A stretch of DNA of 64,000 nucleotides from Lepidurus packardi. Taxonomy: Eukaryota; Arthropoda; Branchiopoda; Notostraca; Triopsidae. This document shows positions 6,001 through 55,927 of this stretch, one piece after another (within the stretch, counting starts at the first letter, position 1; each line of letters starts with the position of its first letter). The stretch covers positions 6,882,001 to 6,946,000 of the forward strand of contig JAKZAN010000004.1 of NCBI GenBank assembly GCA_023053545.1, in the 5' to 3' direction. The notes beneath the pieces are model-generated. The model was not told the DNA's origin and made no database searches. It was given only the letters and a program-made list of their open reading frames with translations. Both the position numbers and the translations under genes were made by a program.

Positions 6001-9000
6001 CGTTTTTGTAGGTGGTTATCTTGGATACGATTGTCATGAGCACCGAAGATGAGAAGACCGTTAATGGAGTCCCTCACATGTCCTGCGAAGCGCATGATTA
6101 CGATCTTATGAAGCCAGTCGTACTAGCCACGTGGAAACATGGATTCCAGGGCTCTTGTCCTGCCCAGAGTGCAATTTTGGCCGAATCCCAGGTAAAAAAA
6201 AACAAGCAAACAACCAAAGTAAAAATAAAAAAAAATAGAATTGGGTAAAGTGTCCAGCTGGATGAGATTTATTATTTCATAGTTTAAAACTTTCATGTTT
6301 TCGACATCCCCTTCTAGGTGGTGCAAGAAAGCTTGACGATTCCAGGAACGGGTGTCCATTTGGTCTATCATTCATCGCGCAGCGCGGGTTATTTGTCTAC
6401 CATTCAGCTCCAACTAACCCCAGACGTCATCCCCAGCACGCTCGTAAGAATCCATTTAAGGATTACCATCGAAGGCATTTTGTTCGAGAAAATACTCGAG
6501 GCAGACCCAGACATCAAGTATACTTATGCGTGGAATCGCTTTAACGTGTACAGGTAACAAAAGAAAAGAAAAACTGTCAAAAGCAACATTTTAACACAAA
6601 TTATGGTGTTTGTTTCCAGGCAACGTGTGTATGGCGTTACAACAGCCTTGGTTAAGGTGGGCTATGTTTATAATTCATGCCAGGATATTATCTGGGACGT
6701 GCAAACAACCAAGCTTAGTGGCCACGATATGAGCATTTCTGAAATTGGGGGCTGGAACTTGGACATTCATCACCGCTATAATTTCCACGAAGGTGAGTGA
6801 CGTACTAATGTAAACTTTTATTTTCTGGAAGCCGTTGTTCCTTATTCGGGAATGATTTGTTTTCTCTCTGGTTTCTTAATTTATTTTATTTTATTTATTT
6901 TTTTTTTGCACAGGCATCTTGCAAAAGGGAGACGGAACCAATTTGTACTTGAAGTATCGACCCGAAATGCTCCGCACAACCATGGGCGACGGGCACCAAA
7001 GGCCTTTGGACTGCCCCGATTGTGATGGGTTGGCTATCAAACAACGACTCCTTGCTCCAGTGGCTTTAGCGGCAGGACAAGACGGATCTCTCTACGTGGG
7101 CGATTTCAATTACGTTCGTCGAGTGTCTCCGGATGGTGTGGTCAAAACGATCTTGCGACTGAAGTAAGTCTTTCGGTTTCCCTCCACCCACGAGTTGGGG
7201 AAGTTTCTTTTTTTTATGATCCTGATGTGATGGGTATTAACCTGGAGTCTGATTTTCTCGTTTTCCTCTGCAGTGCCACGCGGGTTTCGTATCGATACTA
7301 TATGGCCGTGAGCCCGGTAGACGGCACCTTGTTCTTATCGGACCCTGAAGCACACCAAATCATTAAAATCAAGCAGATGGAGGATGTTAGCGATCCCGAA
7401 CGTAATTGGGAACCTGCAGTGGGCTCTGGAGACCGTTGCCTGCCTGGAGATGAAGCGCAGTGTGGAGATGGGGGCTTGGCCCGAGATGCCAAACTAGCTT
7501 ATCCCAAAGGTACAATACTTTCCCTTTTTCCTTTCCCCTTCTTTTTCGAGTTTACTTCGAGTGTTTTTGAGTACAAGCTCGGATTTCTTCAGGCGTCGCT
7601 GTTTCGGCTGAGAACGTACTCTTCTTCGCGGATGGAACCAATCTCCGTATGGTAGATAAAGACGGCATCATTAGTACCATTGTTGGGAACCATCGTCATC
7701 GCGCTCATTGGAAACCCATGCCCTGTGAAGGAACTCTAAGTCTTAGCGAAGTAAGTCCTTATGGCTCTGTTCTTATCCATTTTACAGTAGATGCGGCTTA
7801 TTGTGATCACGGGTTGTTAGAATTAGCCGCTTTGTAGAATCAAATTTTAAAGGATCGATTCAGAATGATAAAATTCATAGCATTGTAATGGGTTATTAGA
7901 ATCACACTTTCGCGTATTAGAATCAATTTCAAGAGAATCTTCACATGTACAGTAACGAAACTGAGTTTAAACAGCTCAAAACCCCCTGGATACGGGCCTA
8001 GCGTTTTGACCAATCCTGTCATTTCCGGCTTAAAAAACAAACCAAACTCCTCAGTCAATTCAATGAGCAGGTTATTCAATTCAATGACAAGTTCCTTTAA
8101 TTGACTGGGAAAATTTAGACGGAATATCGTGTTGAGAACCCTGCCCAAGAGTAGCAGTAGGCTTCAAAGGCGCAGTGCTTAAGTTGTGTTTTAGACGCGT
8201 GGTTATATAAAATGGCGATGAACTAGAAAAGAGTTGATTTAAAAGTAGAAGAGAAGTTGCGGCTCATTGAAACTTATGACAAGTTATATTTAAAAGATTT
8301 GCCACAAAGCGAAGCGGCCGTTAAATTAGAATTCCTCAATCATCTCTTTCAAAATTGTTGAAAAGACGTTATGAAGTAAAAAATAGTGGGCAAACTGAAT
8401 CTAGAAACAGGAAATTTTCTTTTTCTATTTCTTTTTTTACTTTTTTTTTATGCAATGCTTCGGCAAAACAGTAACAACCATCAGTGCCTTCTGTGACTGT
8501 TATGCATCAATAAGCGAAGGTATACGGGAGCCTTAATCGTAGCATTCTGTTGCAAAAACCAAACGATTTTACCCAAATGTTACATGAAGATTTTAAAGCT
8601 AGCGAGATGGATGAACTGATTTTCGGTTATTAGAATCTCCGCTTAATAGAATAAATGTTCTATTGACAAACGTGATCATAATAAGCGGCATCTACTGTAC
8701 ATTCTTTATTTTCGCATTCGTGGGAATTTGAAATGTTAAAACAGATTTTCATGGAAATGTATTTTATTTGCAGGCTCATTTACGCTGGCCAACTGCCTTA
8801 GCCATCAACCCTTTGGATAATGCACTCCATGTGGTAGACGATCATATGATTGTCAAGCTAACTCCCGACGACCGTATCAAGATCGTAGCTGGGCGGCCGT
8901 TGCACTGCGCTCCGGTGGGCACCAACGCTGGGATGTTTGCTGGCTCGGATATGGCTGCTCAAGCATCTTTAACGATGCCTCAAGGCATGGCTTTTGCCCC

Positions 9001-12000
9001 CAACGGCGATTTATACGTCGCCGAAAGCGATGCACAACGTATCAATCGCGTTCGTCGGATTGGCACCGACGGAAGAATCGCCCACGTTGCTGGGCTGGAT
9101 TCCAAATGCAATTGTTTAGACCCTGGCTGTACTTGCTTTGATGAAGATCACTTCCTCGCGACAGCTTCGAGGTTCCACACCGTTTCTGCCATCGCCGTCA
9201 CGCCGGACGGAATCCTACACCTCTGCGACCAAGCCAATTTGCGAATTCGAGCGGTTATTTCTGTCCTGCCCGAGGCCGACGACAGCCGCAATTTTGAGAT
9301 CTTTGCCCCAGAAGGACAAGTCATCTATGTTTTCAACCGGTTTGGCCAGCACGTCGCCACGCGCAACATGGTAACGGGTAAAAACGTGTACGTCTTCACG
9401 TACAACGTCAATACCAGCAACGGGAAGCTGAGTACTGTTACCGACGCAGCGGGTAACAAAGTCTTCATCCTCCGCGACTACGCCAATCAAGTCTCGTCCA
9501 TCGAAAACACCAAAGGGCAGAAATGTCGGCTGAAAATGTCACGAACCCGTCTCTTGCAGGAATTCAGCACTCCGGAAGGTCTTAATTCCACGTTTGATTA
9601 CCACGGATCTACTGGGTTGTTGCGCACGCGCTGGGATAGTACGGGCAGCAGTTCGCTCTATAATTATGACGAAAACGGACGGCTCATCTCGGCCGTTTCT
9701 CCGACAGGCGAAATGATAACTTTGGTCTTTGACCTCAGCTTGAAAGGCGCGTCTGTTCAAGTCACACATGGCGAACAAGCGCCGGTGACGTACTTTATCA
9801 AGAACTCGCGGGTCAGTCGCAAGACCGCCGATGTTGAAGAAACAACTGCCTTGTTACCCGATCGCGGAGTCATTACAGTCACACCGTGGTCCCATACCGT
9901 CACCTTGGAGACGGTCGCATACCCAGTTTTGAGCGACTTGGATCCGGTACTCGGAGAAAGCTTCCCGATTCCGGGAAAACAAAAACTGGAAATTGGCGGT
10001 GAGCTGGTGAACCGCTTTGAATGGCGGTATTACTTGAGACGCAAAGATTCGCGCACTGGAGTAAGCAAGAAACGCGATATTGCACAAGTGGGTAAACGGA
10101 TGCGGGTCAATGGAGAGAACCTAGCGGCGGTCGAGTACGACAAAGATTCCCTTACGGAAGCACTTTTCATGGAAGACCGACTCGAGTTGCTGAATATTAG
10201 CTATGACGAGATGTCACGGCCAGTCGCCTGGACTCCAAGGTAAGACAATTTTCCTTTTCTTCGAAACCCCATTTGTCGTGTTGCAAGTTGTCAGTTTCCT
10301 CATATCTTTTCTATATATTGAGCCTTTCAATATATAAAATTCCCCTTGTTACCATGGTTATCGTTTTGCTGTTTAAGACAGTAAACAAGCCCTCTGGCCC
10401 ATCAGAAAGCCGCATGATCCTATTATCTTTGAGTTTCTTTCTTTAATAGCTTAATTACTAATTCCTGCACAATGAATTAAGAAAGATCACTAGAAACTAG
10501 ATTTTGTATTCCAGCTTTAAAGAAAAAGTTGTTTGTTAGTGACTGTTGCCTTTTAAACTTCCGTTGCCGTCGCTGCATTGTTCTGATCGATTTGAACTTC
10601 TGCCTCTTTTTCCTGGCATGTTTACGATAGCGTGACAAAAAGCAATGAATAATGATTTACTTGTATCGTTATTCAGCGTATTAATTTATTGTTAGTTTTG
10701 CAGTATGATTTGTGGCTTTTTGTTTTGTTTTGTTCGCTTATTACATCCAATTAACTGTGGTTGATTCCTGGGTAAAAAGTTGTTGTGTCAAGCGTTGATT
10801 GGATGGAGTCTGCAACGTCTTTGTTTCTAGAATCTAGCATTTTAATAGCACACTTAAATGCAACCTTGCGTGAAAATTAAGAAGTGAAATTAAGATAATT
10901 AGTATATTGCTGGCACCCAGCACAATCATACTCGATTTCTATATTTTCCTGCACGAGCGCACGCACCTTTTTGGCCCATTTGGAAAAGGTTTCGTTAGCC
11001 AAGGATCATCGCTCATACTAATAGCTATTATAATGATCCTTTCAATGTATCCTTTTCCCCTTGCCTACTATTACGAAGGCTTGCTCAATTAGCTCGTTAA
11101 CGAAGCAGCAATTATATCCTAAAAGTCGTAAAAAAATAGCAGTTTTTCTACAAATTCCGACAGTTCGGTGTTTTAAAAACTCATGTGAAAGAAGCGTGTG
11201 AGCGAACTAATAATAAAAACCACACCTGTGGCTTTCCCCTTGTTTCTCTCTCTCTCCTCTCAATAAACAGAGGCTCGTTTGCTACCGTGGAAATCCGATA
11301 TGACCGTTATGGCCAATTAGCCCAATGGAAACATGGCGAGCTAACAGAAACATACAATTACGACCGAAGTGGCCGCTTAGCCGAAGTCGTTTTCCCCGAC
11401 AACCACAAGATCGTCTACACTTTCAAAGATCCTATGACATCCATGGTAAATTGAATTGCTTTTTCCTTTGTAGAAAAATAAAGCTGCCGAAAACTTGAAA
11501 CTGAATTTCTGTTTTTTGTATTGTTTTATTCTCTAGCCTTCCCAAATTACGACTGCCAGCGGACATACTTTCCTAATCCAGTACGATGCCATGGGAGCGT
11601 TTCAATCCTTGACCACACCTCGAGGCCATATCCACTCCTTCGCAATCCAACTCATTCCAGGCTATTTGAAGATCCTCTACTACTCCCCGGTGCACCGGAA
11701 TCCCTACAAACTGCTCTTGGACGACCAAGGGCGCATTGTGAGCAAAATGTACCCAGGACAAACGTCCCGGATTGTGCATTTATACGACAACGCGTCCCGT
11801 CTGGCCACCGTTTTAGCGGGCATTTCCGAGTCCAACTTCGACTACTATGAGGACACGGGGTTATTGCGCGCCTTAGAAGTTAAAGACCGTCCGTATGAGC
11901 TGAAAACGGAATGGAAGTACCACGGCGGCTTGGTCAAGGAAGAGAAAATGCGCTACGGATCCAAGACGGGCTTAGACAATGCTCGTTTCCGACAGAAATA

Positions 12001-14029
12001 CGACGGGAACGGACGTTTGGCCCTCATCGAGACCGAAATCAACGGCAAGGAATTACCCCCGCACGCATTCCTCTATAACCCCAATCTCGGCTTATTGGAA
12101 GGCATCAACGATTTACGCATTTACCGCAACGCGTTTAACCGCACGGTCATGCAAGACACTGCCAAACATTACTTCCGGATCTCCGATTGGGACAAGTACG
12201 GCCGCTCCTCCATGACCTTAATTAACATTAAGGGCTATGACGCGTATAAAATCGAGCTGGAATTCGATATTCTGAGTCGGATCACGCGCAAACGCATTAC
12301 ATTAGGTCAACGCACGTCCACTATCGACATTCTATACACTCCAGATGGCGCTGTGTCCGAGTACGTTGGCGGGAAGACATGGAAATACTCGTACGACGAT
12401 AACGGCAACATCATCGCCGTGTCCCAAGACGGCCAACGCACTACCATGTCATACGATGCCGGCGACCGTGTCGTAGGTTACGGCGACGTGGAATATGTGT
12501 CATATGACACGCACGGTTTCGTCGTACGGCGCGGCGGGCAAAAGTTGCTGTATAACGACCGCGGCCAGCTGGCTTATGTTACCGAGGCTCAGAAGTATCG
12601 TGTCTGGTATAATTACGATCACCAGGGTCGTTTGGCTGCGTGGCGGGACGACAAGGGCAACGTGACTCAATTCTTCTACGCCAACGCTTTACAACCGCAT
12701 TGCGTGACCCACGTCCATTCGCCTAAAGAAGGTCGCACGATCCGCTATTTGTACGACGAAAAGGGACATGTGGTCGCCATGGAACGGCCTGATCAACGCT
12801 ACTACATCGCCAATGATGAAAGTGGCTCGCCCGCCGTGGTCTTCAACGTCCATGGCACCGTCATTAAAACGGTGGATCGAACCCCCTTCGGCCGGGTGAT
12901 CCATGACACCGAGCCTGACATGTACGTCGCCGTCGACTTCCGCGGTGGAATCTTAGATCCGCATTCCGGGTTGATCCATTTCGGCTCCCGGGTTTATGAT
13001 CCTCTTTTAGGGCAGTGGCTCACCCCTAATTGGGAAACCTTGCATTCCAACCTCAAATCCCCCACCGATATCTTCATCTACCGGTACTACAACAACGACC
13101 CTGTTAACTTAAACCGAGGATTTGACTATCGCACGGATATGAGGTCGTGGATGGAGCTCTTTGGGTACGATCTAAGCGCCCTTTCGGGCCCACAGTACAC
13201 TTCCGCGTATGCTCCGACGCGCAAACTGCAGCAGCAAGACTGCGCAAGTAGCGTTAAGAGTCCCGTACCGGCCTTTGGCGTCATTTCGGGCTTGCAATGT
13301 CTGACCCAGAGCATCCAGAGTAGCATGGATTCGTTGACTTTTGTGCCTGTGGTGAGCTTGAAAGCCGGGCAGGAGATGCGCCGGAACTCATTGCCGCAGT
13401 TTGCGCATAAGAAGCCCACGCTGGGCGAAGGCTTGCTCTTATCGCGCGTAAGTAATCGAGTCGTCGTTACGACGTTGGAAGGCACTAGCAATACGGTTAT
13501 GCAAGACGTGTTGACGTCAGTGTTGAACAGTGCGCATTTCTTGGACGTACGCACCGTGACGAGCGAGCAGGACGTCCTTTACTTTGTCAAGGAAAGCCCG
13601 ACGAAAATGCGCGACGACCAGGAAGAATTACGGCGACTAAGTGGCGCCTTTAATATTAGTCTCAGCGAGGGTGATTCCGGGTCCTGGGAGTTAAGAATCA
13701 GCAACAGCGAAGTGGTGCTTAACGTCATATACGGCTCGGAAGTAGAGCAAGCGCGCCACCGCGCATTGCGTATTGCCCATCGGCGAGCGGTGGAAGCCGC
13801 GTGGGTCCGGGAGAAGCAGCTGGTTGAAATGGGCTTGCCTGGACTTGTGGATTGGTCGGTGGAGGAAAAAGTGGAGCTATTGACGCGCGGGGAAGTGGAC
13901 GGCTTCGTCGGCTCCGATTTGCATAATATCTACCATTACCCTCAGTTGGCCGATGATCCTAGTAACGTCATTTTCCGGCGAGATGGACGACGTAAGCGAA
14001 GAAAAAGTCACCGATCCAGAGGCCACTAA
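1..14029 (+). CDS. Teneurin (Ten-m/Ten-a type), 5'-truncated, 17 exons in window
   Basis: Teneurins are single-pass synaptic adhesion proteins that pair across cells with teneurins or latrophilin. Coding exons: 1-916, 1383-1660, 2606-3017, 3222-3431, 3638-3746, 3973-4199, 4296-4503, 5714-5930, 6012-6191, 6318-6553, 6620-6792, 6914-7163, 7274-7509, 7593-7750, 8774-10239, 11271-11445, 11537-14029. Phases agree at every junction and give 2647 codons plus stop. In order (window numbering): Ser/Thr/Pro-rich juxtamembrane stretch; conserved block [14 protein letters not shown]; eight EGF repeats (about 442-705); Cys-rich/TTR-like region ([21 protein letters not shown]); NHL propeller (about 1080-1440); Rhs-type YD shell (from about 1448) with core motif [17 protein letters not shown] near 2302; then the Tox-GHH/TCAP-like C-terminus and a basic tail. 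The cytoplasmic and membrane exons lie before base 1. I cannot decide between the two insect paralogues. Confidence 0.97.
1893..2065. repeat. Dispersed intronic repeat, copy A
   Basis: In a teneurin intron, this stretch has an ordered set of short motifs shared with copies at 10343 and 17365: TGACGTCA (1897-1904), GTTACCATGG (1935-1944), a TAAGCAAAG-like segment, then AAAGCCCACGTGATC near 2020-2034 and a T-rich end. Order and spacing are similar although the sequence between diverges. Boundaries are approximate. Confidence 0.45.
5182..5208 (+). other. Candidate 27-nt cassette microexon in teneurin
   Basis: In the 1.2-kb intron between the exons ending at 4503 and starting at 5714, a 27-nt segment is flanked by a pyrimidine-rich acceptor (...gctgctcttag) and a good donor (gtaagc). 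Both neighbours use phase 2, and the segment keeps that phase: it would insert nine residues (SLFWSHFNA) just before [10 protein letters not shown] without shifting the frame. Skipping it gives the conserved family junction, so inclusion would be alternative. Vertebrate teneurins use similarly short alternative inserts elsewhere in the ectodomain. This is inference from splice signals only. Confidence 0.4.
7785..8697 (+). mobile_element. Pogo/Tigger-like DNA transposon relic with intact terminal inverted repeats
   Basis: This 913-bp element lies in a teneurin intron. It starts CAGTAGATGCGGCTTATTG and ends in the inverse complement. The 27-bp terminal inverted repeats differ at two positions and are flanked by TA dinucleotides (7783-7784 and 8698-8699), the target duplication of the Tc1/mariner-pogo group. 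Short subterminal motifs (ttattagaatc) recur inside both ends. Around 8236-8420 the plus strand encodes a CENP-B/pogo-type helix-turn-helix: [14 protein letters not shown]...[10 protein letters not shown], continued in another frame as [18 protein letters not shown]. The catalytic DDE part is missing, so it is a frameshifted, internally deleted copy that could move only with help from a full element. Confidence 0.8.
10343..10445. repeat. Dispersed intronic repeat, copy B
   Basis: In the 1-kb teneurin intron 10240-11270. It contains GTTACCATGGTTA (10348-10360), AGTAAACAAGCC and AAAGCCGCATGATCCTATT before a T-rich tail, matching copies A and C in order. The TGACGTCA element at the left of the other copies is absent. 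The rest of this intron is AT-rich with no recognised feature. Confidence 0.45.
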
Positions 14030-14862
14030 AAAGACAATTTTTTGCGACTCTGCACCGACGTTTAACTCCGAAGAACATTATTTTGAAAAGGGAAAAGAAA
14101 AAAAAAACATTTAAAGACACGAACGTAAGAGGCAGAAGAGTCTTAGCAGGTATTTGCGTCTGGCCACAGGGTACTACACAACATTAAACGTCGACTTGGA
14201 AGGATAAAAGAAAGGAAGGATAGAGCCAATCACCGAGTGATTCTCTAATAAGACTAAATAATAATCATAATGGGATCTTCAGTTCTTTGACTAGTTATCC
14301 AAAATTTGGAGGGAAAAAGAGATGGAGTGGCCTTTTTGCTGCTCCCAAAAAAAATCTTTTTCGACAGTCAATCAATACTCTTTTCTCCTGCCGAAAAGCA
14401 GAGCTCGTCCGCCATGCAAAATTCTGTGTACTCTTTTTGTTTGTCATTATTATTATTATTTTTCGTTTTAAAATGAAACTTACAACCACTCCCCGTTTCG
14501 CGCAATTCTGTATTCTTATTCCGGAATTGATATACTCTTTAACTCGCATTGGGAGTGACGGACGGAAGCCAGGATGGGATTGTGTGTTGCTGTGAGTGTC
14601 TTAAGTGCTGTTTTTTTAGTCATTCACTATGTGATACGGCCTAAATCGGGGTATGTATTGGACCGGAGATGTGTAAACGGACATGATCTGCGATGCAATT
14701 GTTTTGGAGGAAATAAGGAAGCAGGATTCCTTTGCCAATTGCTTGGCAATCGTGTGGAAAAACAAGTTTTTGAGAAGCACAAGTTATGTCCAGAATTCGA
14801 CGCCCCTTTTCAAAAAACTTGATAGAAATAATGAGGCATATTGTACATACGTAAAAGGGTGC

Positions 14863-15533: not shown

Positions 15534-18500
15534 TTAAATGACGCAGAGAACAGTTTGAAAAACCAGTCCAATGGTAATCAACAGTCCAGTATAGTCTACG
15601 CGTCCCGCCAGGTGGAGTATTTCCGCGCCATTTTTACCATTAGTAGCACTGGTGCGATGAACAGGGACTGAGGTCGTCCATGGCCGCCAACTTTTCTCCA
15701 CGGTTGAAGTATCTAACGGGGGGAAAAGAAGATCAGAAATCCAAATTCTGCATAACTTTTGACCTTTTCAATACAAATAAGAGTCCCCCGCCCCAATTAT
15801 TGGTTGAAAAATCCCTTGGAAAATTGGGTATTCTGGGTACTTACCCAGTTTCTTTGTAGTCTTGTCCGCCAAAGTTATATAATGTTCGTTGGCTAAGGGT
15901 AGTCGGGTCACTGCAGGTATTTCTACTCGAGACAACAGTTGAACTGGTGAATTTTTTTTCACTTGAGTAAAGAGAACAAAAATGTACTTACCGTAAAGAC
16001 GAATTCGGCCGTCTGCCTCGCCTAAGGAGTTCCGAACTACGCATCTGTAGCTCTGGAAGTCTTGCGGTGTAATATTGCGAATACGCAACGCCATGGAGAC
16101 TTTGTAGTCGCCTTCAGCAGTAGTAATGACATACTTGTCGTCTTTTTATTGTGACGCATACCAACCGGGGTAAAGAGACGAAGAAGGGAAGAAGGGGAAG
16201 CCCAAAAAAGAAGAGCAAATGGTAACGTTAGGCATTTCCAATTGTTTTCTTGGTTATGTTTATGTATATACTAGAACTGAGCATTTCGTCGCGCTCGTTT
16301 TTCCAGTAGGTAATTGGACGAGGATACGCTTCGGTATGGCACACCTATTGAAAGATCGTTTTTCTTAAATTACTTTTCTTTTACAAGTTGGCTGTTTTGC
16401 AAATCCAGTGCAAAACAAGAGAAGGCTGTTATTTGTATACGTACCAGAGTGACCTCCTGGCCCACAGTCGTTCCTTCCAATTGATGCGGAATCCAAAGCA
16501 TTGGCGGAACTGCAAAAGCAAATAGGGAGCAGCGATCGAGAGAAGAGACAGATAAGAAGCAGAGAAAATTTCGCCGTTTGAGTGAGAGATAAAAAAGCTG
16601 AAATGGAAAACTTGCAAAAGACGACTCTTATTTACATTGAACTCCCAAGCTGATACGTTTGCTGACTGAAGGCGGTACACCATTGGAAGCGATGCATAAA
16701 TAAGCACCCATGGATGTCCGGGAAACGCGAGGTAAGTACAGAGTTTCACCGTCCACTGAGTTCACTAGAAGTTTCGTTAGTCGCTTTGCATTTTCTTTAC
16801 ATTTTTTTTACATTTTATTTTATTTTTGTTTCTATTTTGTAGGAGTTTTTTGTACCTCGTTGGTGGTGTCCATGGCCGATATCGTCTCCGTCTTCGCGCC
16901 TCCATATGATGTGTGGTGTGGGGTGTCCTTTGGCTTTGCAAGTCAACGTCACATTGTTACTCTCCCGAACGATCATATCCGTGCTTGTTTCAGAATCAAC
17001 GATATCTGGCGGCACTGGGAGTGAAAAGAAACCCCCAAAAAGACAAGTGTGTGACCGCGCAAATGTTTCTTTATAATCAATTTATCGAACGCAAAAAGAA
17101 AAAATGGTGGGACAATCTATACGTGAGTGGAGCTATACTCGAAAAAAAGAAGGTTGGGAGATTTTGTCAAATACATATGTGTTGAGGAGGAAGAATTGAA
17201 AGTCAAATAGCCACTAGTAACAAAAATCGCATGTTGAGGTTTGACGGATTCGTGTAGTCTATATTATCCTAAGATATGATGCATTTTGTTCCAGATTTCT
17301 CTAGAACAAAAATATTGGCTTGCGAACGTTTAGTCATGAAGCTCATAATGGTCATGAAGCTCATTCATGACGTCACAGCGATGTCATGACGTGGCTTTAC
17401 TGCAGCTTGTTACCATGGTTACTATTGACTTCTGTTCTTGAAACCCTTAAACAAAGCTCTGTGAATTTTGAAAGTCTGTAATTTCAGACAGCCACGTGAC
17501 CCTATTTTTTCGTAAATTATTTCCTTAAATAAGTTGTAAATAGCTTAACTGCAGTTCTCCCGTGTGGTGAAAATAAGCATATAATAAGGAACTAGATTGT
17601 TGTTTATTGGTGGCTATTATTCCCCTTTGTGTTGACTTACCGACAACCTCCAAATAGGCTTGATGGTACCGCATAGGGTCTGTGTTGATTTGACACATAT
17701 ACCACCCACGATCGGATTCCTGTACATTAGCAATCTTGAGCTCCCAGCGCCGTCCACCCGCGTGAGTTAAAGAAATGCGATAATTCCGTGTGATGACTTT
17801 ATTATGGATGGTCAATATCGAATGACTCTCCACGCGTACCCAAGCCACCTAAATTCCCCACAAAGCACATGTGAAGGAAAAAAAAGAGAGAAAATGAAAA
17901 TGAGAGTTTTTTGGGGGGATAAAATCTCTCTCTCTTTCTGTTCCTTCGAACTCTACTTTTATATGCAAGGCTTTAGGAAAACCAAGTGCCAAAAGGGCCG
18001 TTGGAAGTCATTAGCCTATCGCAGCGAGCAAAAGAATGGTTCCAAGCTGGAATTGGGCCTCTTTTGCTATAACGCATACTAATCGGAGACGTGAGGTCTT
18101 CGTGCCGAGCTGTTACGTGTTTAGGAGGGTTTCCAAAAATCCTAGAAAAGAATAACCCCCAACCTCCCTGAAAAGGGGAAAAAATAGTACGCCAGGAAAA
18201 GTTCCCTTTCCGCCACGCCGCCATGCACGTACCGGGGCAGAACGCGAACAGCAGTACATATACCTACCCTCTAGGGCGCGTTTTAGGTTCCTCCTCCCCC
18301 CTTCCCAACCGTCCGTCGAGGAAGAAGCAATCCGTTGCTGCTACACAGTTTCTCGTTACTCTTCAACAGCATCTTTTGCTCCGCGCGCCTAAGAAAACTT
18401 CCCCATCGTGCTTTTGTGCACGCTTGAAGCAACGTATAGCTCCCTCTGGACAATGCGCTTGATTCTTCCAAGTGCAACTTAAGAGAAAAGACCATTTCCT

Positions 18501-32900: not shown

Positions 32901-34100
32901 GGTTGGTTTGGCAGTGGCCAACAAAAAAAAAATACAGGGTTCTCCACACGCTGCTGAAGCTTGCTGGGTTCCAGTGCTCATTGTGAGTACCGAGTTTTAA
33001 CTATTCTGAACGTGCCGGGCTCCTCACTTTCTTAAGAACTTTTTTGCTTTTTTATTGCCGAGCTCTTGCCGAATCTGCCAAAGTGTTGTTGTGCAGTGCC
33101 CCAGTACAAAGCTTTCTGGCTTCTTCCAAAAGTCAAGCCAGGCAGTGTTGTGCAGGTCACAGCACGTGACTGTCGTGTGCCGTATTTCATTCCTGTAACC
33201 CGTTGGATTAATGTAAAAGCAAAAGAGCAGGACGATAAAAACTGCTCCTCCAAGTTTAATTACCTCCTTAGGTAATAATAAAACGAAACATCCGCGATTA
33301 AAGTCCCATGTTCATTTATTTAGCTTTCTCGTGCTTATGAATTAGCATATTATCAGTGCAAAATTGTGTGTGCATCCCGAGACCAATTTTCATGTTGGCT
33401 GGGGTTGAGAACTGGGAAGAGTTTGTTCGTTTACGGTTTTCGTTGTAATAAAGACATAGTTTGGGATACATTGACGAGAGAGGGAGAGAGAAAGGCAGGG
33501 ACTGTTTTTTTCTCATTGTGGCAAGTCAGTTGGGTCAAGAGGCGCGCGAGTGCCAAAAAGTGATGCCATTAAACAAAGGATAAAAAAGGGGGGAAGAAGA
33601 GTTGCGAAATTGAATAGCTGATCCTGGAGCTTTGTCGAGACGAGCCCGAAACGAGATATGGCACTTTGCCCCTTTCTGTAGATCTTCTTTCGTTCTTGTC
33701 GTTCAAGTATTAACTGATAGCTTCGTTTGCTTGCACTTTGGCCATCTATGGGAGTTCCTTTACTTGGATTTTATTTTTTGCGTTACATATTTCCTTAGCT
33801 TGTGAAATAGAATTAGCAGAACCTGATTGTTCGCCACACTTTGCCAAGATAGTTTGGCTCGTTTAGTAAAACAAGCACGTTCATCTCATCACTCATTATT
33901 GGTCTCTTGTTCGGTTTCAACCTCGAGGAGTTTGTCTTTAGGACGCCCGGTGTTGCTAACTTGGCACCGGTGAACAAGCAAAGTGTTGGCCACGGCTTGT
34001 TAGTTGAAGTTTTCTCTTACGTGTTTTTTTTTTCTAAAACACATGTTTGCTTAATTTGCGGTTTTGCTTCTCTGTTTGAAAAGGTTCATGTTTCCGATTC
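29986..34100. other. Intergenic, about 4.1 kb
   Basis: Between the divergent AGK and DM-Groucho genes. A 30-bp minus-strand segment at 30811-30840 reads like the 5' half of a tRNA (TAGCTCAGTTGG A-box) without a matching 3' half. Otherwise I see AT-rich sequence, a CRE-like TGACGTCA near 32475, and short ORFs without family resemblance. Promoter and 5' UTR of the DM-Groucho gene should lie near the right end. Confidence 0.5.
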
Positions 34101-34117
34101 ATGAACTCGGAAGGTGA
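34088..34117 (+). promoter_or_regulatory. Short upstream ORF overlapping the DM-Groucho start
   Basis: An ATG at 34088 opens a nine-codon frame (MFPIHELGR, stop at 34115-34117) that overlaps, out of frame, the main ATG at 34101. If it is in the mRNA leader, ribosomes would have to scan past it, a common way to damp translation. Whether transcripts start upstream of it is not known. Confidence 0.3.
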
Positions 34118-36990
34118 AGATATTTCTGTGGGAGGAAGTTCTCCAAGAGCCAACAATCGCGTTCCGAGATGTTCATTATGCCGAAATCATGGATTGGTAG
34201 TAGATTTGAAAAACCACAAACGCTACTGCAACTGGAAAAATTGCACTTGTGTGGCGTGCTTGGGGACAATGCAGTAAGTTTAAAGAGTATTGTATAGACT
34301 CTTGTTCACTAATTCACTTAAAAATTTTAAATAAGAATAAAATTTAAAGTTTTTCTCACTTCACTTTGTACCACAAGTTCTGGCTTCTGCACCATCTTAT
34401 GCCACTTTTTGTTTGTCTTTTTGTCTTCTTGGTCCCCCAGAAAAAGAAAAGTGAATGCCAATCAGGTTGCTGCACGTCGTGCTGCGAAACAAGACTCAGA
34501 ATTAGGCGAACCTGCCGTAGAGGTTCCTCAGTCATTACCGACTGTCATACCATCACAATCTGTACCGCTTGTAAGTTACCAATTGTATGCAAGCCCAAGA
34601 TCAGAATGAAGAGCGAATGTTGCCTGGCGTGGAGATTTAAGGCCTTTTTTGATTCCCAATGGCTTTTTTTAGTTAGTGCTGCCGCCAACGCGGTCTCCTG
34701 CGCCGCCGTTGCCTCCGAATCATACAGTGTATAGCACATTTGAGCGCGTAAAAGAGGAAATATCGTTTCTACAGACGCAGTATCAAAGGTGAAACAAGCT
34801 TGCCTTGGCAAAATGTCCACATTTTTTGCTGCTTATTTATTTCCCCCTGCAAAACTTCCATGTAAAACTCTCTGGGCTGGGATTTTTCTTCTCTTTGATT
34901 TCTTCTCCTTGATTGCTTGGATTATTTTTTATTATTTTTGTCTCGAAAAAGAAAGATCAAAACTACAATTGTATTTCTTATAAAAATGCTAAAACTGTGT
35001 AGTTTCGTATTTTAACCTTAATTTTTTATACCTATTTAATAATATTGAAGTTTGAAGTTGGATTGCGACAAGCTTACGACCGAGAAGGCAGATATGCAGC
35101 GTCACTACGTTACGGTAAGTAACTTTTTTTATCCTCCGTTTCTTTTAAACCTTCCGTTTAGCTTAGGAGTTTTACGAGCTTATTTTTTTTAGTGATATTG
35201 CTCCTCTTAACTTTTTTAGTATTACGAGATGTCCTATGGATTGAACATGGAGATGCATAAACAGGCAAGTAGAAACTCATTTCCTTTTTTCATTTAAGTT
35301 TATGGTAGTGTGTGACTGATGTGGTCAACAACGCTTGTTAGCTACGAAAATCCTTTTAATTTCTTTTTAGATTCTTTTATTACTGCGGCGAGGGAATTCG
35401 CTATGCTACTTTTGTAACTGCAAATTCGCTATAATGCAGAGCGAGTATTTAATGGGAGTGGCTAATGCCAACTCTTAACTAGTTTTACGGTTTTCTTTTA
35501 CCTTGTCTATTTTTTGCACGCATCTAGAAAGATACTGATGGCATTTTTTTTTTTAATTTCGCCAAACTCGGATTAAAAAGAATACTAAGGAAAGCCACGT
35601 GTATAGTTTAGGTCCCTTTTTTATCTTAATAGAGAAAAGGGAGGAACGGGTACGCCAGATAAGATATGCGAATTTGAACGGCAAATGAAAGATGACTAAC
35701 AGACATTTTCTTTGTTTTGTTTTTATCTCATTTTTCCTTTTTCTAGACCGAAATTGCGAAGCGTCTAAACACTATAATTGCGCAGATACTGCCCTACCTT
35801 TCCACCGAAGTAATGGGATTCAAATTGCTTGGCCCTGGTGTGTCTTCATGCGTATACTTCTATTTTCTCTTTTCTTTGTCCTGATTTTATGTAGCAGCAC
35901 CAACAGCAAGTTGTTGCAGCAGTGGAGCGAGCCAAGCAAGTCTCCATGAATGAATTGAACGGATTTAATGGGGTACTTAATGAGAATAAAAACGTTTTCT
36001 ATGGACTTATGCTAATGGTTTGTGGGTTGTTGTGTGATTTAGCTTAACGATTCATCTCGACATACGTTATCGCGTGACGCTGCATTGCTGCCTTCCGTCG
36101 TGCATCCAACAAACTTTGCAAGGAGTCCTTCGGGATTAGGTGTCAGCGTTCCCGGTATTCCAGGTGGACTTTGTACGTCCCCACGTATAGGAAACTCTCC
36201 AGGGGTACTTGTTGCAGGCCATGAAGGACTTCAGCCATTGATACGAATCACGCCTGAGATCCCAATGCAAAACGCTTCCATGGCCAGTGGCATCAACATT
36301 AACCATCTGTCTGACCCAGTTGCGTCAAGCCAAAGGGACAATCAGCGAGACCGGAAGAAGCCGCGAGATGCAATTTGCTCGGCGCGGAGCCCTGTTATAG
36401 TCGAAGTAAAACCCCGAAAGCGGATTAATTATCGCAGTTTCATTTAATGTTTAAATCCATTGGTTCTAGTGCCGATCGCTGACAGCTATCCAGTCTCACA
36501 AAGAGGTCCAGGCCTGGTTAGTGCAACCAGTTACTAATGACAAGCTCGATAAAGCTGACTTCGAAGTAAGTATCTTAAATCGTGCTTCATTAAGAGCGCG
36601 CTTGGGACGTACTCTTTATCCTCCTCTTATAAATTTCTAGTTTGTATGGCGGTTCGTTTTTATTTTATGTTTGTTGCTAGGATAGCGATGGTTATCGGAG
36701 CGATCAAGAGTCTGTGGTGGATGTTGTGAACGAGGTGGGTTGTTAAATTTTTAGTAGTTCTCTTGTTTGTTTTTGTTGTAAGGAGAGATTTGATTGATGC
36801 CCATTTTTCTGAATAGGACCCCGGTTCCCCGTTGGTTGTGGCAGCAATGCGTAATGGCATTAGCTACGGGGATAAACATGATGAGGTGCCAAGACATCAG
36901 TTGTCGCTTTTGGCCCATTCGGAGTTTCGACAGCTCAGTGGCGAAAGGTTTTTGCAGGAGAGGCATATAAGCGTGGCAGCAAGGATGTGA
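34101..36990 (+). CDS. DM-domain / Groucho (TLE) Q-domain chimeric protein without WD40 repeats
   Basis: Exons 34101-34273, 34441-34570, 34673-34788, 35051-35114, 35220-35264, 35747-35809, 35895-35972, 36043-36405, 36470-36565, 36681-36734, 36817-36990 keep frame throughout (451 residues). Residues 20-80 form a DM domain with the doublesex-type ligand spacing: C24, C27, H30, H39, C43, C48, C50, C53, then [18 protein letters not shown]. Residues 124-220 are the Groucho/TLE Q domain: [84 protein letters not shown] Pro/Gly/Ser-rich region (224-376) and a CcN-like motif ([20 protein letters not shown], 377-396) follow. The protein then stops in a 57-codon exon; the family's WD40 propeller is absent. 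The DM part should bind DNA and the Q part tetramerise, suggesting a self-contained repressor or an AES-like antagonist. No ATG lies between the Q-exon acceptor (34673) and the Q helices, so this exon needs an upstream coding exon. Confidence 0.85.
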
Positions 36991-39227
36991 TTATTGACAA
37001 GTCCCTTTTTGGGTGGGATTCCGCGCAATTGCCTTAACAAAATCAAAACTAGGACGTACAAGAACAGGGGTTTTTTCTTTTAATCTTTTTAGCATGTTAT
37101 TTTGGAATCCTCAAGTTAATCTAGACTCGCTCAAAACTTCATTACGTAAATCGCTAAACAAATGTGTTTTAGGCGTCTTTTTTTGTTTTAGTTAGGTAGG
37201 TAGAGTAAGTAATGTTTAGTTGGCTTTTAAGGAAATTCCGTGGTTAACAAGCATTATTCAATACTTTTTTTCGTTGAACTGAGCTTCGTGAAAAACTGGT
37301 TTGCCGTTGCAATATAGTACCCGGTTGTCTTGTCGAAAAGTTGGCTTTCATCGTTAATTATTTCGTTTAGTCGCAACTAGAAGCGTCTGACGGGGAAATA
37401 CCCTAACTTATTCTTTTTCAGGACATACTTTTTCTAATCGGATGATGCAGTTTGGCTACACCAAGTTTCCAAAGGTATGAGATGATGAAAATCTGCATAA
37501 ATGTATCATATATAACAATAGCCAGGTCAACCCATCAAGCCCAGGTTTGACTTCAGTCAGGAGCCGTATAAGTCGGAAGAATATGTGAGACATTACGCAG
37601 AAAAAGATACGAAATCAAACGTATGAAGCGGAATACGAAATAACTCTTATTTGGCACGAATAACTACCAAGCTTGCTTAGGAAGTCCCACAAGCGCGCTT
37701 TACGTGGTAGTCTAACATCCTTTTCTGTACAGTTGGCGTTGGATGTTGCTGTCCGCAGAATATAATAATATGCACGGAAGTCTCTCTTGGATATTTTAGT
37801 AAAGACAAGCTTGACACATTGGAAGGCTATCGTCGTTTAGCATAGCAGCTTTTGGGTTCGACTTTGTATATTGTAAATTTTTTTAGAATTGAGTAGAATT
37901 GTAAAGCTTCTTTTCCCAATTTTTCGCCTTTCTTGAAAAATCTATCCCTCCCAAACATTACTCTAGCGCCCAGTTTTCAAATCTGTTGGATTTTTTTTCT
38001 GTGACTTTTTTAACTCCAAACATTGGATTCAAAATAATGCAAATGATATGTTTCGATCTCTCCCTCGGAATTCCTTATTTGCTTATTGATTGTTTATTGA
38101 TTTAAATCTAGTTTCCAAACATGTCCTTTTGATGTACGATTTGTAACTTTTGAAATAAAAGGGAAATACTGGGAAATTATTTTGAGATTTTAAAAAAATA
38201 CGGTAAAAGGGGTGCGGCTCCAAAAAACTACGAATCCTATTGGTGGATTGGGCTAAAAAATGGGCGAGGCTTATTTTCAAGCTGGAAAGGCGTTTTCTGG
38301 GCTTTTTTCTATTAAGGATTCCTGCATTATCAAGGGGACCCTGCAAAAATCGAGAGCCTCGCCCCTTTCGATGTTCCCAACTCCCCTGCTCGGTTTCCTA
38401 TCCCTGATATTCAAACTTGTAAAGCCGAAGCTTCACAATTTCGAATATGGAATAGGCACCTTGCCGGGAAAGCATAAGGTACAGAGAGAGGAAGCCAATT
38501 TATATTAGTTTTTTCGGAAAGTAAAGTGCCTAGACCGGGTTTCGATCCGAGGATCTCTTGTACGTAAGGCTTGCGCCTTATCCACTTTGTCATAAGCTTA
38601 TTTTAAAAATGAAACTCCTATAAATATAAGATATGAACAAAGCTGGTGTACCGTATACATGGTTAGCATCTATATTTGTTCGATTTATAAAATATTATGG
38701 TTTGCCTACAGCCATTCCTCGCATTCTGTAGAAGTTGGCATTATTATACTGTATTTGTGTCTATGTATTTCAGAATTTAGTTTAAAAATCCTCCTTAATT
38801 TTTGTTTACGAATTAAAATCATCTGGTTTTAGGTACTGTTCCGTACTAGATACGGAAGGTGGATTTCATTGTTGCAAAATTCATTGTTACCCGATTAAAT
38901 GTTCTGGCTAATTCACTCACGTCCCATTCTCGCCAACGGCTAGTCGATATTCGTAACCTGTAATTAATATAAGTTTGAAAATAGTTTGACAACTTCATTT
39001 TCGAAAACCTTCCGGACCGAAAGACAAGTAAAGGCAAAACAAGCAAGTACATTTAAGACGTTACGTCCGACAACGAATTGTATTATACTTGCACATAGCT
39101 TACAATACATTAAAAAAAAGTATTAAGACTTGTAAAAACTGATAAAGCTTGGCGTATATAGTTCTCTTTATCTTAACATAGAAAAAACATAGCAACTGTG
39201 CTGCCACGAATGCATACTTAACTCCGC
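36991..39227. other. Intergenic between convergent DM-Groucho and Syt12 genes
   Basis: About 2.2 kb of AT-rich sequence. I searched it for WD40-like coding exons that might complete the Groucho part and saw none. The only structured item is the tRNA-like segment at 38526-38597. Confidence 0.55.
38526..38597 (-). pseudogene. Degenerate tRNA-Arg-like sequence (72 bp)
   Basis: Read on the minus strand it has an A-box-like GTGGATAAGGCG, TACG where an Arg-ACG anticodon loop would lie, and a T-arm-like GGATCGAAACCC (consensus GGTTCGA). Total length fits a tRNA, and four of five T-stem pairs form. The acceptor and anticodon stems do not pair, so it is a pseudogene or the head of a tRNA-derived SINE. 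Confidence 0.35.
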
Positions 39228-42200
39228 TTAATGTAAAATATGCCACATAGCCACTGATTTCCTGACGTGGTGACTCATATCTTGCCAGTGTTGACGTTCC
39301 GTGTTATTTTCTTCAGGACCAATGACAACCGTGCCTAAAATCGCCGAAGTTTTCCCACCACGTTCAGAACTGTTGTCCAATACGCTTACCTAAACACACA
39401 AATCAATCAAATGATACAATAATGAATACTAGCACAGTAATATAAATACACAATAATGAATACATATCAATAATATGAAAGAGGATAACGAATCAAACGG
39501 CGTTACCTCTAAAGAGCAACTGTTGAGTTTTGCTGGAGTGATACTGAACGTTACGGCTTCATTCCACACAGGATTCACTGTCCCCTTGCGAACTTCGGTT
39601 TTCTTCTTCTTTATCCGTTTGCCTTGGCAAAGCAAGTGCAGTTTCACCGTTGGATCAATAACATCTTTACAAGACGCCACTGCCAGATTCTTTGCTTTCA
39701 AAACCACGACTGTCAATCTTTCCGCCGAAGGTAAGTAGCTCAGGGAAAGCAACACTTGTGGTTCCTCCTCTAACGACTATAATATTATTATTCAGGTATG
39801 AGCATATCTGAAATCACACAATAGAGGTAACCCTACTTTAACATTGCGACTGACATCTCCCCAGATCTCCACTCCTGACAGGACATCATAGTTTGCCAAC
39901 TTAAGCTGCAAATCACCCAAAACGCACTGTCGCGAAAACCGATCATAGTCGCATACCTAGAAAATGATCAAATAATTCAAATAATTCTGCCTCTTTAACG
40001 TTCGTTAATGCTTTACTTCCAAAACTATGGATCTGTCATTAAGTTCTTCGTGACCGACTGGAAATTTGAATTGCTCTCCAATGTATGGACTACGGTGATG
40101 AGCACTGTAGCGCAGAGGGGTTTGTCGACGTCTGTTGTCCACTTCGGGGATCAAGCGAACACTCGCGAAAGGTTCTTTCATACCCTGGGACCCGTGATTA
40201 TTTCCATAGTACAACTCCCCGCCTAAATCCAAATCTTGGGCTGGTGGGAGAAAAAAGTACGAAACTATTACCCTGAGTTATAACTACAATTAAACTATAA
40301 CTCTATTGAATTCGAACTCTAATTATTACTACGAAGTTTTAAATCTTTACATCAGTGTACCTTTTTCTTTTCCAAGCCTGAGGAACACACAGCAGCTTGA
40401 TAGGAAATTCTACTGATGACTTATTTTTTAAAAGCGTAAACTAACTGGAAGAGCTGAGACTTTCTAAATGGCGTTAAAGAAAAAGAAGGAAATAAAAAAA
40501 GAAGCGGCAATTGCTAAGGTAACAGTCGTCCAAATCTTCTCTGCAGCCACAAGCAATCAACAGGTGAAGCACATCCTCTACCTAATCTTTTGTGGATAAA
40601 AGCCTACTCTCTGACCCCTCTTTTTGCTTTTTCCCTCTCATTTTTTCCCAAATAAAAGATTGTATATCTGTAGTGTATCCGAAGCTTTTAAGTAAACCGA
40701 AAATAGCCTTCCTAAGACCTGACAAATCTTAAATTACTTAAAAACCTTCAAAATCTTTCGACGCTAGTACCCATGTTATCCCTAGAAATTCGCTGATAAA
40801 CCAATTTTTAAGAGAAAAAAGCTGAAGAAAGAATTTGATACTAAATACGAAGTACAATACCTTCAATAAGATGTACCAGCAGATCTGACTTGTCGAAATC
40901 ATAGCACAAACGGAAATGAATTTTCCCCACGCTCAGATTTCCCACCCGATTCTTCCGCCCAGCACGCTGTCCCTGTGTGTTCGCTCCTCCAACAGTCGGA
41001 CGCTCTTGGTGGACTTTCCCATTGCTGTCATCAGTGTTGGACATTTCATAAAACCGTAGATCAGGTTCGGCGGCGAGGACGATGGTAGTTTCACGTTTGT
41101 AGAGTTCAGGCTGCAAACCCCCCAAGCTGCTATTAAGGGAAGACATAGATGAGGTTGTCGTGGCCAGAGACGTATTGGAACCGAGATGGAGACTTGACTC
41201 CGAGTCTCGCGGTTGCAACGGGTGTAGGAAAGGAGAGAAACAGCGTCTTGCTTCCGCAGATGAACAGCTCCCATGTTTGTTGGGCAGGGGTGAAGGTGAG
41301 GGCAAAGGTGAATGGCAGGGCGAGACTGGACGCTCGTGAGGCAGTAATACGCTGGAAGATGGGGTGGGACTGACAGCTGGACTCGGTACGCTCTGGTACA
41401 CACGACGTCGTATGGGCGAAGGAGATCGGTTTAGGGGGGACAAGGGTGACCAGGAACTCGCCAAGCGAGAAGCGTCTAATCCGGTTGCTTCCACATTATC
41501 CTTATTAGCTCCAGTGTTGTCTTTGTAAGCAGTCCAGTTTATTTCTGGACTGAACGTCCTAATCTGCGGCGACGAACCACGATGACCCTGTGGGAAAGAA
41601 AAATCAATAGGGAATCAGCTGTGCTGAATAACTTCAATTTAAATGCAATCCTAAGTTTCAGGTTTCCCTTAGTTACTGTACGTACTTTCCGGGCCACATA
41701 ATCGATGGCATGCTGGGAAGTCGTCGACTCGGTCCTGCTCAGCCGAGGCGCAACAGGTAAGGAACAGGATTGATGAGGTAAAGGAGAACCGGATGGCGAA
41801 ATTCGACCTGCGGTCTTCTTCGGATCCTCATTCGCAAAGGAATTACCCAAAGGAGACAAACTCGGTACAGGAGGTTGGACTACATGCCGCGCAGCTTCAG
41901 CTACAAATTCCTGTAATAACATGTGAAAAGGAAGAAAATAAACAAAACAAATAAGACGAAAAAAATTGCCTTTACGGTATGAGCTAGTTTTTTCCTTTAA
42001 TCAAGACAAATTACAAATGGTATGGGGCCAATCGAAGAATGTTTTACTGTACCGCACGCTTGATTAGATCCTCCATGACAGGGTCTGTCATTAAGTTGGT
42101 TACCCCACGTTCGTAACACGAAAAGTCTTGATTGACCTGATCCCAGAAGCTCCAACAATGGGGTCTTAATTGTGAATCCCGGGGCCAATAGCTCGAGTAT

Positions 42201-54101: not shown

Positions 54102-55927
54102 CTACTCGCTCATGGACGAGTTGTGTCGACTGAGCAAATGGCGATGAGGAAAGGCAAGACTATGCCTTGTCATTCGTAGACCTTCTTCTACAGGATCCGC
54201 TGAAGGCGTCGCTGAATGGGACAAAGCGGCCGTACGATCAAAATCGATGGTGGCGTAACCTTCCGGGGCGGCGCGTTGGGGCGATTCAGGGAGCGGGACA
54301 AACACCGCAGCCGCCATAGCCGCTTGCGGAGGCGACGTGGGCAGATGGGTGGAGGCCGAGGAACCCGAGCCGCCCCCATCAGACGCACTTCCTTTATCCA
54401 AATCTAACATGATGTAATTGACTTGCCTTAAAGGCAAAGATTCAGGTGGCGCCAGCGTCGACATGGTATGGGGGCGGGGCGGTGGTTTGATTTCCTTGAC
54501 TGCTTCGGGCACAATGTTCATGTACAAATGTCGAGCTTCCTGTTCGTTTTTGAGCAATTCATCCAATCGGGCGTAATTGGTATTCATGTCATAGTCCGCT
54601 TGTTGTGCACCTAACGGTGGACTGGCTAATTCTGAACTGGTAGGACTCACGTTAGCGTACGCAGGCGGCGGTTCGGTGGGTAAATGGGGCTCGTCGTCCT
54701 CTTCCGCCCCTGTGCCCAAAGAACCACTGTTGACGTACTCGTGCAAAGTGGGCAAATTCGTGGAAGGAGGAGGTATTCTTAGCAAATTCATATTGCAAAG
54801 CATTGAGCTAGTGGAGGACACGGCTAAACTGGAAGAAGGGACGACCATGGGTAAGACCGAGGGCATGTTGCAGTAACCGATGATGTCACTGTTCATGTAC
54901 AGGGCGGAATTGGGGTTCGGGACAGGTCCCGGTAAGAGTGCTGCACTGCTGCCGCAAGAGGAGCCACTGGGGCTGAGCAAGGGCGTGCTGTCTCGGCTCA
55001 GAATGGAAGCGGCGCTCAAGGGCCGGACCAAATGGGCGGGGCCAGAAAGGCGGATGGGTTCCAAGTACCCGCTTTCTTCTTCCATCGTGGGCACGTGATC
55101 CAGAGCTTCTCTTTCCCGTAAGTCCCCGTTCATCCCTGGTCGCAGACCATTCAGCTGGGAATGGGCGTGGCTCAAACTGGTAAGACTAGGGCGTGAACAG
55201 GAAAAGGACAGCCGGCCGTTGGGCAAGAACTCTGTGGTTGGATGCGGTTGTTGTCTGGAAGTAAAAAACACGGACGAAGGTAGAGTATGCGCAGCTACGG
55301 AACTTGACGTGGAAGCAGAAGAGTGATGGAAGCTGGGGAGAGTGGCGGCCAAATCGTCACTGCCATGTTCGTTGCGGACGGTTATCTGAGCCTGGAGAAC
55401 GTTAAACAGTTGCTCGGCTCGGCGACACTGAAAAGCATAGATGCCCGGTCCGGTAGGGCAGCGTCTGCCTGATTCAAAACTAAACAAATCCGCGTCAAAG
55501 CCATACCGGCGAAGACATCGCAACGGCCATCGCACAGGAGCTTTCCCGCGTTGGTATAAGACTAAATCCAATTCTGTTACTTCAATCTGTCCAGGACATA
55601 AACGTCGGCCAGCATCATCCACATTCATCACCTGAAAAGGATCAAAGCGAAGCTATAAGACGATATCTTCCAATACGACAAAATTCCAAAAAATAAATTA
55701 AATAAATTCCAAATGTAAACCAAAATATTAATTAAATTGTACCAAATATAAATTAATGTATATAAAAATATAATTTTAAAAATAATAAAATAAATTCAAT
55801 TATTTACAATAATTGAATCCAAGAATTTCGAGCTATACATTCCAAGTCAAGTTTGAAAAAAAACAATCACCTGGAATATATTGGGATGGCGGTCGTTGAT
55901 GTCGGCCTTGCTGGAGACGCAGCCCAT
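54102..55927 (-). CDS. FRS2-like docking adaptor (FGF-receptor substrate)
   Basis: FRS2 proteins are myristoylated adaptors linking FGF and other receptor tyrosine kinases to GRB2 and SHP2. Two exons, 55927-55871 and 55631-54102, give 528 residues. The start MGCVSSKAD is an N-myristoylation signal. The PTB/IRS domain follows (about 20-115): QIEVTELDLVLYQRG, CLRRYGFDADLFSFESGRRC, GIYAFQCRRAEQLFNVLQ, nearly identical in pattern to human FRS2. The long tail is Ser/Pro-rich with tyrosine motifs YVNS, YANV and YMNI (pYxN, GRB2 type), then RQVNYIMLDLDKG, matching the SHP2-binding site of FRS2, and EGYATIDFDRTAALS, matching its last tyrosine block. The 239-bp intron interrupts the PTB just before VMNVDD. 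Confidence 0.93.

Follow-up and report, generated by a model that had tools for sequence, protein, structure and literature searches.

Sequence-specific transcription factors often recruit Groucho via a short peptide; dimerization of Dsx proteins relies on a small domain of their own. In fly Groucho, the GP region is an HDAC-binding region that is also required for import into the nucleus. In the Groucho/TLE family, the Q domain is described as carrying tetramerization, which in the long TLEs is essential to repression (PMC2997355), and in fly Groucho both GP and CcN are reported to be required, with deletion of CcN abolishing repression and SP preventing unrestrained repression (PMC3272004). 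Among the DM factors, Dsx is reported to require dimerization for efficient DNA binding (PMC6721801), and eh1 motifs have been predicted in DMRT2/dmrt11E (PMC1310626). The arthropod DM subfamilies are given as the Dmrt99B, Dmrt93B and Dmrt11E types together with the dsx clade (PMC6721801). Here, we analyzed a 64-kb stretch of the Lepidurus packardi genome (contig C3, 6882001–6946000; hereafter, the window), in which a DM domain and a Groucho Q domain are predicted in one open reading frame (hereafter, the fusion).

Gene model

The spliced model comprised 11 exons on the (+) strand of the window, which formed a single open frame of 451 codons with a stop ending at position 36990. An AG preceded each of exons 2–11, and a GT followed each of exons 1–10 save exon 5, which has a GC donor (GCAAGT). 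Exon 1 (34101..34273) carries the start codon, the bulk of the DM domain and all eight zinc ligands and ends in phase 2 at GTAAGT, and exon 2 (34441..34570) adds the remaining DM domain (the KRKV..QVAARR helix) and a linker and ends in phase 0, again at GTAAGT. After an intron of 102 bases (34571..34672) that contains no AATAAA, ATTAAA or N, the Q domain begins in exon 3 (34673..34788), the equivalent of groucho exon 2, which is entered in phase 0 and left in phase 2. The earlier note had given these same positions for exons 1–3, a 0/0 junction between the DM and Q exons and an end at 36990, all of which proved correct in the spliced model.

The Q domain continues through exons 4 (35051..35114) and 5 (35220..35264), both placed by the spliced model and Pfam, and through exon 6 (35747..35809), and it ends in exon 7 (35895..35972), where a tandem acceptor (35895 or 35898) gives a protein of 451 or 450 aa, i.e., a difference of one Q. 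Downstream of it, exon 8 (36043..36405) encodes a diverged middle region containing RKKPR, exon 9 (36470..36565) encodes more of the middle region with no domain recognized, and exon 10 (36681..36734) encodes a CcN-like motif that is the counterpart of DSDGEKSDQDLVVDVANE in Scylla Groucho. Exon 11 (36817..36990) begins a novel C-terminus with DPGSP and contains the stop.

An additional ATG at 34088 opens a short reading frame, in a different phase, that overlaps the start of the fusion (window 34088–34117, ATGTTTCCG..., read as MFPIHELGR). A pyrimidine-rich tract and an AG lie just 5′ of this frame, and a 5′ UTR intron may therefore end at ~34082.

Domain content

The Pfam DM model matched the predicted protein over 47 of 47 model positions (residues 20–66; 59.5 bits, cut-off 27), and TLE_N matched the same protein over model positions 4–107 of 118 (residues 119–223; 171.2 bits, cut-off 32). 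The zinc ligands (C, C, H, H, C, C, C and C) lie at offsets 4, 7, 10, 19, 23, 28, 30 and 33, and the DM stretch gave gap-free alignments with Drosophila Dsx (1lpv) and with human DMRT1 (4yj0), which bears out the earlier observation of eight ligands at the doublesex spacing. Residues 18–80 aligned to DMRT1, with the 4yj0 alignment extending through the RR of the recognition helix. On the Q side, residues 106–248 matched the solved Q domain of TLE1 (3.7e-45), and as judged from its sequence the Q domain of the fusion likely tetramerizes. A misread Dsx dimerization domain was considered as an explanation of the Q part and was ruled out by the TLE_N match (171 bits) and by the matches to TLE1 structures (1.5e-44 or better).

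Among the best 120 relatives, local alignments to Grouchos reached a maximum coverage of 69% of the fusion, with ~40% identity, and weak similarity in the middle region is therefore possible. Tblastn with two Groucho queries (P0034 and P0013) detected WD40 in both groucho genes on contig C4 but, at E ≤ 0.1, nowhere in the window, the part after exon 11 included. The 451-aa protein gave no match to DSX_dimer (OD2, PF08828) at E ≤ 1, and regular expressions found no eh1 or WRPW motifs in the fusion.

Proposed origin and function

We consider it fairly probable that the locus is one functional, exon-shuffled gene whose product is a DM repressor with a corepressor built in through Q. Its origin would lie in the groucho exons from Q to CcN, without the start exon and the WD40 exons, having been joined 3′ of two DM exons. 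The product would bind DM sites and would oligomerize via Q, both among its own copies and with the two Grouchos of the same genome that carry WD40. Such homo- and hetero-tetramers would bring the repression exerted by WD40-bearing Groucho to DM targets with no need of an eh1/WRPW peptide, and Q would stand in for the dimerization domain by which Dsx binds DNA well. Recruitment of Groucho through the fusion's own Q domain is probable.

The main rival to a DM repressor is an antagonist resembling AES/TLE5, whose Q would trap full-length Groucho in inactive complexes or park it at DM sites, with de-repression of DM targets or of other Groucho targets as the outcome. Q without WD40 is indeed the layout of AES/GRG5, which is reported to be able to act as a dominant negative (PMC2997355), the window gave no WD40 match, and loss of CcN, or of the entire central region, is likewise described as making fly Groucho dominant negative (PMC3272004). 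However, AES is described as consisting of Q and GP only (PMC2997355), whereas the fusion retains the CcN block and has its own DNA-binding domain, and we regard the antagonist as less likely than recruitment, although it is the strongest of the rivals.

The DM–Q junction and the resident groucho genes

Both normal groucho and normal Dmrt genes, the presence of which had been raised in the earlier note, exist in the genome, namely two WD40-bearing grouchos and three further DM genes. The two groucho genes (A and B) have Q, CcN-like and WD40 parts and lie ~15 kb apart on contig C4. Across this pair (C4:3182000–3209000), the intron content differs, with groucho A lacking the first Q intron, and both genes have a long insert within the WD40 domain. 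The Q introns of the fusion match groucho B as to both position and phase, and its Q domain is 72–75% identical to those of A and B over 99 residues.

A phase-0 end at a GT, before the exon equivalent to exon 3 of the fusion, is possible for the start exons of groucho A and B (MYPSPARHPPG and MYPSMNP...). Exon 3 itself has no ATG in any of the frames, in agreement with what had first been noticed of it. Because exon 3 offers no start codon and is entered in phase 0, as is groucho exon 2, the DM exons take the place of the groucho start exon; since both ends of the junction are in phase 0, the reading frame would have been preserved at once on joining.

We next weigh two adjacent genes, in which case a short DM gene would terminate within intron 2 and a fragment of groucho would be spliced from its own start exon further upstream, skipping the DM exons. 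Retention of intron 2 leads to a stop after 12 extra codons and thus to a DM-only protein of 113 aa, which makes a separate DM-only product or isoform possible. The evidence for such a split is outweighed by the lack of either polyadenylation-type hexamer (AATAAA or ATTAAA) in the 102-base gap, by the lack of an ATG in exon 3 and by the canonical donor and acceptor with matching phases. In addition, a narrow pattern for groucho-type start exons (ATGT[TA][TC]CC) had two sites in window positions 14101–34673, and neither showed a phase-0 GT before its stop when inspected by eye; a start exon of a different sequence would escape this pattern. We therefore consider two genes improbable.

Constraint and coding signal

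Over 99 codons of Q, the comparison of the fusion with groucho A and B gave pS values of 0.90 and 0.94 and pN values of 0.12 and 0.15, respectively, and the comparison of A with B gave a pS of 0.81 and a pN of 0.06. The synonymous sites of the fusion Q are saturated and its pN is low, which indicates a domain that is old and constrained. When neutral drift over the same distance was simulated with 5000 copies each, 155 of those derived from A and 87 of those derived from B were stop-free, and at half the distance the counts were 618 and 442, respectively; these simulations covered stops only, not frameshifts. The DM domain of the fusion, compared with the genome's three other DM genes over 45 codons, showed a pN of 0.34–0.44 and a pS of 0.75–1.08, with all eight ligands kept.

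We also scored codon usage against a null of stop-free non-coding sequence (500 draws per exon). For exons 1–11, the number of draws scoring as high was 118, 191, 53, 18, 47, 221, 56, 0, 27, 1 and 14, respectively, so that support is strong for exons 8 and 10, and exons 1, 2 and 6 cannot be told apart from non-coding sequence. It is accordingly the match to the DM model, together with the open phase, that marks the DM exons as coding, not the codon score.

In a Q tree of 32 rows, from which P0046 (Dermatophagoides) was left out, the fusion had by far the longest branch (0.39 vs. a median of 0.01), with an unsure position and a bootstrap that had not settled. Because this branch is so long, Q binding could be altered. 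Groucho B grouped with Artemia in the same tree (94/79, or 96/87 with P0019 included; bootstrap not settled), and for the WD40 part of groucho A the nearest among the best 120 relatives was also Artemia (79%), as would fit a branchiopod.

The long Q branch, the diverged DM domain and the weak codon bias of exons 1, 2 and 6 are features that a chimeric pseudogene in decay would also show. Decay is nevertheless very hard to reconcile with 11 exons free of stops and frameshifts, with intact splice sites and ligands and with a pN of 0.12–0.15 in Q at saturated synonymous sites, and we give this explanation little credence.

A DNA search of the whole 108.6-Mb genome found a single copy of the fusion gene and, in groucho A, one further 57-base piece matching at 86%. 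An assembly join of two unrelated loci is scarcely credible, since the region 34001–37100 contains no N and lies within a 12.9-Mb contig, the join would fall in an intron with matched phase, and neither half has a second DNA copy beyond that 57-base piece. Of the DM–Q factor first proposed for this locus, the part that stands firmest is that a single gene encodes both domains in one protein, which phase, splice sites, the lack of a start in exon 3, single copy and Q constraint strongly support; its tetramerization, its DNA binding and its action as a repressor, which the earlier note took to be perhaps sex- or tissue-specific, are predictions held with less confidence.

Search for the same domain order elsewhere

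In a whole-protein search covering 5.8 billion proteins, 7990 candidates were scored, 2664 of them reached E ≤ 0.001, and the best 120 were examined. None of these 120 best relatives had a DM domain (by pattern and by phmmer at E ≤ 10), and two control DM segments were detected. As a close DM+Q relative should outrank plain Grouchos, none seems to be present in the protein collection, which may simply be without the Lepidurus lineage. When the DM part (residues 1–125) was searched alone, 208 candidates were obtained, none at E ≤ 10. The top matches, P0001 and P0002, were considered as DM fusions and ruled out, each having two TLE_N stretches and no DM.

Among the papers listed in the literature searches, as judged on titles and the starts of abstracts, none described a protein with the order DM and Groucho Q or a Triops dsx. 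We could not find the DM–Groucho Q combination elsewhere. The earlier note had stated that it knew of no described protein with this order, which agrees with these papers and with the protein search, where DM followed by TLE_N was not found among the best 120 of the 7990 candidates.

Candidate doublesex orthology

DM domains occur at four places in the genome, the fusion included. Two of the other DM genes have a DMA domain ~1 kb downstream, and, to judge from subfamily signatures, these two are probably of the Dmrt99B and Dmrt93B types and the third is probably of the Dmrt11E type. With the three other arthropod DM subfamilies so assigned, the fusion is, by elimination, the only doublesex candidate found. 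An open frame that lies ~2 kb 3′ of the DM exon of Dmrt11E type, and that we assume to belong to the same gene, ends in the eh1-like FSVESIIGKR (L027:8414–8437).

In pairwise comparisons with five other DM domains, the DM domain of the fusion showed 20–23 identities over 45 positions each time, with no type favored. Its L13 and T37 are common to Drosophila Dsx and are absent from the three remaining DM genes of the genome. A threonine is reported as one of the two residues that mark insect DSX DM domains (PMC3637828), and it is our guess that T37 is that threonine.

Linkage to prospero was considered as proof of dsx orthology and failed, since prospero (HPD) lies at C4:1.39 Mb and the fusion at C3:6.92 Mb, i.e., on separate contigs. 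A genome-wide search for DSX_dimer was empty, with the controls likewise silent. The dsx–prospero linkage is seen in seven insect orders. According to PMC6721801, it was not found in Hemiptera, and OD2 is not detectable in Hemipteran Dsx; neither the lack of an OD2 match in the fusion nor its lack of linkage therefore rules out dsx. Cladoceran DSX is described as having DM and the usual oligomerization domain (PMC3637828), so that, if the fusion were dsx, Q would have taken over the place of that domain.

It is possible, but we advance it only tentatively, that the fusion is the animal's only doublesex ortholog, with Q replacing the dimerization domain and sex-determination targets hard-wired to the corepressor, and that retention of intron 2 yields a DM-only form competing at the same sites, i.e., a switch between repression and release. 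A conserved sex-determination factor would then have been rebuilt by exon shuffling. Repeated switches of the sexual system are reported in Notostraca (PMC3585860); the targets of the fusion and its switch could be tested directly in tadpole shrimps, whose sexual system is very labile.

Neighboring genes and other observations

Within the window, Teneurin exons with a C-terminal Tox-GHH domain lie at 8768–14029, and weak immunoglobulin-domain matches, below the Pfam cut-off, lie at 15768–17848 on the (−) strand. The neighbors on the other side, also on the (−) strand, are a C2-domain protein (39429–39755) and an IRS-type PTB protein (54102–55631).

Elsewhere in the assembly, fragments of COX1 are abundant in contigs C1, C2, C4, C5, C6, C21 and C38, several of them lying in multi-megabase contigs. 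These fragments contain TGA and frequently further stops, and they appear to be mitochondrial DNA copied many times into the nucleus. The best COI matches, at 87%, were to distant arthropods. Stop-free frames of 609, 450 and 742 aa belong to COX1-family genes in contigs C52, C214 and C43, respectively, which are probably bacterial and from associates of the animal. Among the 14 of 344 contigs whose lengths were inspected, six of 10.7–14.0 Mb stood out; for Triops cancriformis, 2n=12 is reported (PMC4815504). Contigs C7, C10, C12 and C9 measure exactly 25000, 25000, 25000 and 132000 bases, respectively, an oddity of the assembly.

Comparison with known systems

The fusion shares the C2H2C4 ligands and the recognition helix of DM/DMRT transcription factors. 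With arthropod Dsx, it has in common an N-terminal DM domain, an identical ligand spacing and an oligomerization domain after it; however, Dsx dimerizes via OD2, whereas the fusion has a Groucho Q domain and a CcN block instead and is not near prospero. The N-terminal Q domain of long-form Groucho/TLE proteins is also found in the fusion, but the start exon has been swapped for a DNA-binding domain, and the WD40 propeller is not matched. Like AES/TLE5/GRG5, the fusion is a short Groucho relative with Q and without WD40 that is encoded at its own locus; to the Q and GP of AES/TLE5, described as its only parts (PMC2997355), it compares with an added DM domain and CcN-like block.

The eh1-bearing DMRT2 and Dmrt11E are, like the fusion, DM factors expected to work with Groucho. 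In these proteins Groucho would be held by a predicted short peptide (PMC1310626), whereas a piece of Groucho is built into the fusion. A protein combining corepressor recruitment and oligomerization in one chain would serve as a naturally occurring test of the contribution of each.
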